Source: Microlunatus phosphovorus NM-1
GTDB taxonomy: Bacteria > Actinomycetota > Actinomycetes > Propionibacteriales > Propionibacteriaceae
DNA: 64,000 bases
Assembly: GCF_000270245.1 (NCBI RefSeq)
Contig: NC_015635.1
Coordinates: forward strand, 434,001-498,000
Direction of reading: 5' to 3'
Of this stretch, positions 557 to 1,785 are shown one piece after another. Every line of letters begins with the position of its first letter. Position 1 is the first letter of the stretch. The notes under the pieces were generated by a model, which was not told where the DNA came from, did not search any database, and saw only the letters and a list, made by a program, of their open reading frames with translations. Position numbers and translations under genes: made by a program.

Positions 557-586
557 TTGACTTCCCTCCAAGCGTCAGAAGATACT
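557..586 (+). promoter_or_regulatory. Candidate promoter of the HTH-SAICAR-synthetase gene
   Basis: TTGACT at 557-562 and GATACT at 581-586 are separated by 18 bp, a reasonable housekeeping-type promoter. The -10 box lies inside the left arm of the inverted repeat at 573-622, so a protein bound there would block transcription. A start site would fall near 592, leaving a leader of about 50 nt before the ATG at 643. Identified by eye only. Confidence 0.45.
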
Positions 587-622
587 GACGTCAGTTAATC
601 CTGACGTCAGTATCTTCTGACG
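573..622. promoter_or_regulatory. Perfect 22-bp inverted repeat, likely operator
   Basis: Arms 573-594 and 601-622 are exact reverse complements around the 6-nt centre TTAATC. Each arm also contains the self-palindrome CTGACGTCAG (585-594 and 601-610), so the site offers two palindromic boxes as well as one large dyad. It lies between divergent genes, overlaps the candidate -10 of the rightward gene and ends 6 bp before the AAGGAA ribosome site at 629. It has no T-run and is not placed as a terminator. The downstream protein carries an HTH, so autoregulation is the simplest reading. Confidence 0.6.
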
Positions 623-642
623 ATTTAGCAAGGAATCGATGC

Positions 643-1785
643 ATGGCGCAGGACGCCCCGTCCGCCAAGGCGAAGCCGGTTCACCCTGACTGGGTCCTGG
701 AACTGGAGGGCGCAGACATCCTGTTCGGACGCGCCGCGCTGCCAGAGTTCAAGAGCGAGCCGTGGACGATCCACTTCTCGCTGCCATCCGACCTCTCCGA
801 GCTGGACGGCGTGGCCGACCCGTTGGTACTCATCCATGCCGGATCGGGATTCGTTCGTGACATCGAGTCGAAGATGGATCTCCTCGTCGCAATGGCGCGT
901 GAGCAAGGGCGCTCGTGGACCGAGATCGGTCGGGCTCTGGGTGTCACCAAGCAGACCGCATGGGCGCGGTTGGCGCGTGTGGTGGCAGAAGGCAAGACCA
1001 AGATCGTCGAGGAAGTTGGCAACGGTGAGGTGCTGGTCCGCAGCAAGGACGACATCACCGCCGGCGACGGAGCCAAGCACGATGTGATCGATGGCAAGGC
1101 TGCCGCGTCCACGCGTACGACAGGCAACATCTTCCGACTCCTCGAGCGCCACGGCATCCCAACGCACTTCGTGAACGGTGTCGACGACGTCACCTTCCGG
1201 GCGCGCGAAGTGGAGATGATTCCGCTGGAGTTGGTGGCGCGTCGGTACGCCACCGCCAGCTTCAAAGATCGCTTTCCTGACCTGGTTGATGGCGCACTCC
1301 TCGACGAGGTGGTCTTTGAGGTCTTCGAGAAGGACGATGCCAACCACGACCCGCTGCTGGAGTTCGATTTCGACGCCAGCGTCCTACGACGGTACGTGCC
1401 CAACGACAAGGCGGCCGAGGCGATTGGCCCAGTTGCCAGAGCTGGTGACTTCATCAGCGAAGAGCCGCTGGGTGAGAGCCGCTACGCCGATGTTTCGCCG
1501 GAACTCATCGCCAGACTTCGGAGCCGTACCGTTTCGACTTTCGAGGTCATCGAGAACGCTTGGAAGCAACAAGGTGGGGTCTACATCGACGTCAAGATCG
1601 AATGCGGCTTCGATCGTGAGAGTGGTGAACTCCTGGTAGCCGACGTCATCGACAGCGACTCCGGCAGATTGCGCTTCGGCGAGATTGACATGTCCAAGCA
1701 GTCGTATCGAGACGGCACGGCCACCTTGCCGGAGATCAAGAGGAAGTTCGACGAGGTGGCTGCTCTCACAGATCGTTTCGTGTGA
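643..1785 (+). CDS. HTH DNA-binding domain fused to SAICAR synthetase (PurC-like)
   Basis: The protein has 380 residues. Residues 1-70 are an unrecognised N-terminal region. Residues about 84-108 form a helix-turn-helix (SWTEIGRALGVTKQTAW) of the kind seen in actinobacterial regulators. From about residue 114 to the end it matches SAICAR synthetase, the ATP-dependent ligase joining CAIR and aspartate in purine synthesis: VAEGKTKIV at the glycine-rich start, DGAKHDVIDGK, HGIPTHFV, VEMIPLELVARRY, and near the C-terminus VIDSDSGRLRF and SKQSYRDG. Ordinary PurC is about 240-300 aa and starts near the glycine-rich strand, so the first ~110 residues are extra. AAGGAA lies 8 nt before the ATG. It may be an enzyme-regulator that senses purine intermediates or a PurC paralogue turned regulator. 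I cannot tell whether it is catalytically active, but the main motifs look intact. Confidence 0.8.
   Translation: MAQDAPSAKAKPVHPDWVLELEGADILFGRAALPEFKSEPWTIHFSLPSDLSELDGVADPLVLIHAGSGFVRDIESKMDLLVAMAREQGRSWTEIGRALGVTKQTAWARLARVVAEGKTKIVEEVGNGEVLVRSKDDITAGDGAKHDVIDGKAAASTRTTGNIFRLLERHGIPTHFVNGVDDVTFRAREVEMIPLELVARRYATASFKDRFPDLVDGALLDEVVFEVFEKDDANHDPLLEFDFDASVLRRYVPNDKAAEAIGPVARAGDFISEEPLGESRYADVSPELIARLRSRTVSTFEVIENAWKQQGGVYIDVKIECGFDRESGELLVADVIDSDSGRLRFGEIDMSKQSYRDGTATLPEIKRKFDEVAALTDRFV

Follow-up and report, generated by a model that had tools for sequence, protein, structure and literature searches.

Some metabolic enzymes also regulate genes and are then referred to as trigger enzymes. 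SAICAR synthetase, be it stand-alone PurC or the N-terminal half of PAICS (PF01259), has the same fold and the same ATP/Mg and CAIR/Asp residues as the protein considered here. TipA-class MerR regulators are described in PMC7762955 as minimal autoregulated resistance systems in which the binding of a ligand frees the DNA-binding head. The gene described below, from the 5,683,123-bp, one-contig genome of Microlunatus phosphovorus NM-1, joins a SAICAR synthetase domain to a predicted DNA-binding head, and a search of the open literature found no report of a DNA-binding PurC fusion. Hereafter, “the window” is the whole stretch of DNA that was analysed (64,000 nucleotides, C1:434001-498000), and the features of the locus are collected in Table 1.

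Table 1. Features at the HTH-PurC fusion locus (window coordinates).
Feature	Position	Strand	Evidence
Divergent P-loop kinase-like frame	1-454, off left edge	-	193 aa in L070:13873-14454
Promoter-like TTGACT-N18-GATACT	557..586	+	Sole match within 440-700; 0.1 expected in shuffles
Operator copy 1, CGTCAGAAGATACTGACG	573..590	no strand	Repeat and genome scan
Operator copy 2, CGTCAGTTAATCCTGACG	589..606	no strand	Repeat and genome scan
Operator copy 3, CGTCAGTATCTTCTGACG	605..622	no strand	Repeat and genome scan
Ribosome-binding-like AAGGA, 8 bases 5' of ATG 643	630..634	+	Sequence
HTH-PurC fusion gene	643..1785	+	Single 380-codon frame, 380 aa
N-terminal head, residues 1-113	643..981	+	Common to 71/152 proteins among the matches listed; weak matches to small HTH proteins of other genomes
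Helix-turn-helix, residues 79-113	877..981	+	93% mean pairwise identity, 65 rows; sub-threshold Pfam HTH matches
PurC-like (SAICAR synthetase) domain, residues 114-380	982..1782	+	PF01259; PAICS active-site residues; Foldseek matches
Loop adjoining the CAIR/Asp site, residues 338-351	1654..1695	+	S338, G341, D349, M350, S351 fixed in fusion clade

The reading frame and its N-terminal head

The frame of the fusion gene is open from 589, and ATG 643 is the earliest start codon after the opening stop. In the protein database that was searched, the gene appears as a 297-aa version (P0062) with Met84 (window 892) as its start, which would remove most of the head; the conservation of residues 15-78 argues for the earlier start at 643. 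Relatives were collected as the union of the best 120 proteins from each of two protein searches, the latter queried with a sigma fusion's C-domain, which gave 152 distinct proteins (P0062 included) and is no census. The assembly frameshift joining two unrelated genes that the initial annotation had considered was not found: among the matches listed, 71 of the 152 proteins (three of them cut short) have this very head, which rules out a frameshift or a chimera as the source of the fusion.

The extra N-terminal residues with a helix-turn-helix (HTH), which the initial annotation had placed before the PurC part, are borne out as well, with the HTH call resting on family conservation and on the operator described below, since the Pfam HTH matches at residues 79-117 stay below their cut-offs (HTH_23, 20.0 vs 24.6 bits). 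An AsnC/Lrp regulator was considered and rejected: the HTH_AsnC-type match is below its cut-off too (19.7 vs 27 bits), and no AsnC ligand-binding domain is among the Pfam matches of the fusion protein.

Homologues without the HTH and with a start near residue 114, which had been named as evidence against the fusion, turned up only in part, as seven of the 152 proteins among the matches listed are short. Three of these (P0072, P0097 and P0098) start part-way into a known head or at the junction and look mis-called or cut, and the other four (P0103, P0111, P0117 and P0143) may be truly headless. Such short clade members would suit a reading in which the protein works solely as an enzyme, its head being a functionless leftover of the fusion event; this reading is, nevertheless, highly improbable, as the HTH is the best conserved of four stretches of the protein (93% mean identity vs 84% for the C-domain in 65 rows), three of the seven short rows are accounted for by where they start, the heads exchanged for it are DNA binders or HTH-like, and their cognate promoter elements are kept (see below).

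A divergent PurC-like domain with an altered loop

The identification of the C-terminal part as a SAICAR synthetase stands, with PF01259 matching residues 114-360 at 138 bits (cut-off 20, E 4.6e-40, Pfam search), and the purC equivalog model TIGR00081 scoring 103 bits, i.e., below its cut-off of 189.9; judged by these scores, the C-domain is a divergent PurC. The suggestion of a PurC paralogue is thus supported, and the genome has an ordinary purC as well, at C1:750686, followed by a frame that we take to be purQ-like.

With the SAICAR-site residues of human PAICS as the reference (PMC9376930), 21 of the 24 active-site residues given there are identical in the C-domain of the fusion, and the positions that differ are N43D, M190V and W214G. 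An aspartate at the N43 position is also found in 51 of 52 comparison rows of plain PurC and PurCE (from which L053, L055, L058 and L059 were omitted). Y314, S338, G341, D349, M350 and S351 are invariant in 155 rows of the fusion clade, among which the window core equals that of P0062 and the L003 core that of P0091 (P0115 was omitted from the cores); in the 52 plain rows, these places are mostly taken by L (314), N (338), W (341) and D (351). Because of the PAICS comparison and these invariant residues, the ATP and Mg ligands are read as kept and the loop adjoining the CAIR/Asp site as altered, and then frozen, in the fusion clade, and such fixed changes beside the pocket may point to an altered ligand. 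The change of the tryptophan proves nothing by itself, since the ordinary PurC of the window's genome has a small residue near that position as well (DSSRFW).

The AlphaFold model of the fusion (mean pLDDT 72) is good over the larger part of the C-domain, whereas the head is poorly modelled, each ten-residue block within the first 120 residues being below 55. All 38 Foldseek matches at E <= 0.001 are PurC or PAICS chains, and the nearest solved relatives are PAICS chains. We infer that the C-domain still makes SAICAR.

A probable triple operator at the fusion's own promoter

The inverted repeat noticed earlier beside the gene is real (25-nt arms at 570-594 and 601-625, 96% complementary) and resolves into three 18-bp CGTCAG-N6-CTGACG palindromes set in 16-bp steps, neighbouring copies sharing a CG. 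The second hexamer of the promoter-like match (Table 1) sits within operator copy 1. Perfect CGTCAG-N6-CTGACG occurs at three places only in the 5.68 Mb genome, and all three are those at 573-622. Under a first-order model, 1.6 single sites would be expected per genome (one simulated genome had three) but only 8e-12 triple arrays, so that what counts is the array, an isolated site carrying little weight. The repeat is very likely the operator of the fusion protein.

The predicted target is the gene's own promoter, since the genome has no other perfect site. The interpretation of the initial annotation is partly supported: the DNA-binding head and the repeat as its very likely operator are upheld, whereas the predicted target is this one promoter and not a group of purine genes. 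A search for a purine regulon controlled through this operator gave no support: no further perfect site exists, and the sites with at most one mismatch, 28 in number with the three perfect ones included, do not exceed the 34 of the reversed control.

The operator was tested independently on stand-alone relatives of the head, which had been fetched from other genomes by protein with their promoters disregarded. In a first set, 4 of 11 loci have a perfect GTCA-N8-TGAC near the start, once paired, and in one of its members, L084, a further frame that looks HTH-like by eye is also preceded by a perfect CGTCAG-N6-CTGACG. Thirty loci made up a second set, taken from the class of G239; 28 of them were placed (L129 and L131 were not), and three (L105, L109 and L124) duplicate L086, L084 and L093 of the first set; at least one perfect site lies within 200 bp before the domain in 17 of the 28. 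These loci hold 25 palindromes in 5,510 upstream bases vs one in their 76,824 other bases, the lone exception being the second site of L084, and three control patterns were found 0 times in them. Loci that had been collected by other means than this HTH give a background of 23 palindromes in 1,065,024 bases. The perfect palindrome is absent from the remaining 11 of the 28 placed loci, several of which form a distinct subgroup (GRSWNQ...SRQAARQRF). These counts make a strong comparative case that the head would recognise the palindrome at its own gene.

As a side observation, (C/T)GTCA-N8-TGAC(G/A) is seen just 5' of the own gene in L084, L086, L087, L091, L105-L119, L121 and L126, often as a pair 27-29 bp apart, and is predicted to be the autoregulatory operator of a family of small actinobacterial HTH proteins. 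L089, L090 and L092, from other genomes, combine this kind of HTH with a longer C-terminus, which presumably resembles Clp N-terminal repeats.

Different heads on one C-domain

Among the matches listed, 60 of the 152 proteins have a MerR head (P0077 and P0115 are also MerR-type but cut or deleted), nine an ECF sigma factor head with regions 2 and 4, and three a fourth N-terminus, which in a scan of one member gave no Pfam match but by eye resembles an HTH. Across the heads, the C-domain is 72-85% identical to that of the window (eight relatives). The window's head is, on this comparison of proteins, one of several interchangeable N-termini on one C-domain.

In a tree of 87 C-domains, all of the fusions form one clade (support 100/97), separate from 10 plain PurC rows, and the heads change 11 times across seven groups when the short rows are counted in, vs a minimum of six, and seven times without the short rows. 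A single clade of sigma heads is rejected (p-AU 0.0002), and a single clade of MerR heads is not (p-AU 0.146), both tests having been chosen after the tree was seen. Since one MerR clade is not rejected, the nested position of P0109, a MerR protein, is unsure. One further locus, L053, groups with a sigma fusion. Its frame at L053:7563-8381 (Acidimicrobiales) has a second kind of MerR head, which we assume to be TipA-like, before a PurC domain without its middle, and is either a decayed gene or an assembly fault.

Promoter elements of the MerR and sigma fusions

The MerR fusion L003 (identical to L135) has TTGCAC-CTCACGCGACGTGACCTCT-TATGGT just 5' of its start, with a dyad in the 19-bp spacer, and the same promoter-dyad layout is found in five of six MerR relatives with other C-termini, which we take to be VOC-like or TipAS-like; it is absent in the sixth, L141. 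In other loci, of which 1,175,911 bases were scanned on one strand, the core of the MerR dyad was found 0 times.

Both sigma fusions read as DNA have CGCGAACC-GAAGTCGGGCTTG-nCGGTAA 5' of the start, and CGCGAACC lies upstream in 6 of 17 ECF loci, i.e., both sigma fusions and the 15 other relatives placed (the ECF set used 19 of 32 places; L167 was not placed, L164 was left out as the same stretch as L148, and L147 offers just 13 upstream bases). There are six occurrences in 1,773 upstream bases vs four in 52,247 bases elsewhere, and 0 for the control patterns, a count that is descriptive, as the motif was picked after the loci had been inspected. No element of this kind was seen by eye in the broken fusion L053. 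On the side, L144-L146, L163, L165 and L157 have CGCGAACC or a near form directly before their own start codons, and CGCGAACC before the genes of ECF relatives is possibly an autoregulatory promoter. The MerR and sigma fusions, as far as these motifs tell, keep the promoter elements of their head families.

A spare SAICAR synthetase, the head of which would provide simple negative autoregulation of its own level with no signal being sent from the pocket to the head, could explain both the retained active-site residues and a perfect operator found at the gene's own promoter only. It leaves unexplained, however, the fixed changes beside the pocket and the use of heads that usually answer signals (MerR and ECF sigma), and is considered unlikely, albeit not far-fetched.

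Distribution and gene neighbourhood

In three samples (57 relatives, 396 genomes of the phylum and 198 of the family), the C-domain turned up once each, and every time in the genome to which the window belongs. Of 395 genomes from the class of L004's genome, three have it, two of them known beforehand; the whole fusion protein was found in 0 of 396 genomes in the order of G141. The HTH fusion, the spread of which had been questioned by the initial annotation, is rare and scattered in these samples rather than widespread. In a scan of genome contigs (58 loci), the head fusions are L003 (MerR), L004 (sigma) and L053, and the remaining loci, at 33-50% identity, are plain PurC, partial, or longer frames taken as PurC-PurE (as judged from their length only). 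An ordinary purC also occurs in two of the three other fusion genomes checked (G452 and G453); none was seen in G451, an assembly that may be incomplete.

Carriage by phages or plasmids was rejected, as all matches to such records (44 plasmid, 188 phage) are below 60% identity, and the eight loci on viral contigs are at 24-48%. The nearest unfused relatives include, as a separate observation, plain PurC-like genes of Patescibacteria (L006, L008, L012 and others), Saccharimonadota among them. Saccharimonadota and other Patescibacteria often lack purine synthesis.

The divergent P-loop kinase mentioned by the initial annotation exists as a frame (with sub-threshold AAA_33 and Gar/GrdA-type matches and a start about 120 bp from the operator array), but no link to the fusion was found: inspection by eye showed no neighbours in common between the three fusion loci L003, L004 and L053, so that the kinase as a partner has no support. 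Downstream of the fusion, the window has a trypsin-like protease frame (1968-2894, PF00089).

A resistance-type system, in which the pocket binds a purine antimetabolite and the protein, TipA-like, induces itself as a sink or a tolerant enzyme, would fit this rare and scattered occurrence, the changed pocket loop and the presence of presumably TipAS-like C-termini in the MerR-head relatives. Against it stand the retained active-site residues and a context in which no inhibitor or producer genes were seen and the neighbours are not shared, and we regard it as distinctly unlikely.

Proposed mechanism and comparison with known systems

The reading that we favour, and hold to be moderately probable, is that of a self-contained loop in one gene: a PurC paralogue whose HTH head would sit on its own triple operator and control its own promoter only, likely according to the occupancy of its pocket, with the PurC-derived body as sensor-enzyme. 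The HTH head would bind the three tandem operator copies at 573-622, and this binding would change when the C-domain is occupied by ATP together with CAIR, SAICAR or a similar compound, so that a rising ligand would lead to more of the protein being made, as in the one-gene systems of the TipA class. A head and its cognate promoter would travel together as one 5' cassette: because both lie 5' of the body, promoter and head could be swapped at once by a single recombination with the loop staying closed, and, as such a cassette, even unrelated heads (HTH, MerR, ECF sigma) would be exchangeable without loss of control. A broader proposal, which we put forward tentatively and with its chances slightly below even, is that SAICAR synthetase serves as a portable sensor-enzyme module behind at least four unrelated heads with their own promoter elements, reading the state of the purine pathway or a purine antimetabolite and setting its own expression.

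If so, one enzyme part whose DNA-binding heads have changed several times, the promoter apparently along with them, would amount to a natural experiment in the wiring of self-regulation; in any case, one would not expect a SAICAR synthetase to carry a sigma factor or a MerR head, and a predicted operator, CGTCAr-N6-yTGACG, is gained for a group of small actinobacterial HTH proteins. The members of this group (L084, L086, L105-L119 and others) share the HTH with the window's head and have GTCA-N8-TGAC upstream, but no PurC domain.

Compared with SAICAR synthetase proper, the fusion differs in its DNA-binding head, its changed and fixed loop, a score below the purC equivalog cut-off and the ordinary purC alongside it. 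With the TipA class, it shares the layout of one gene for a head and a ligand-binding body (both functions being predicted for the fusion), and the MerR-PurC fusion has the same promoter layout as MerR relatives with other bodies; the body is, however, a PurC-like enzyme, and the MerR head that marks the class is found in the MerR-PurC relatives, whereas that of the window is another HTH. The likeness to trigger enzymes consists of an enzyme and a regulator being united in one protein (again, both activities are predicted), the difference being that the fusion's predicted target is its own gene only and that several unrelated heads occur on one enzyme part. Enzyme-regulator fusions as such are known, and it is the exchanged heads that are the unusual feature here.
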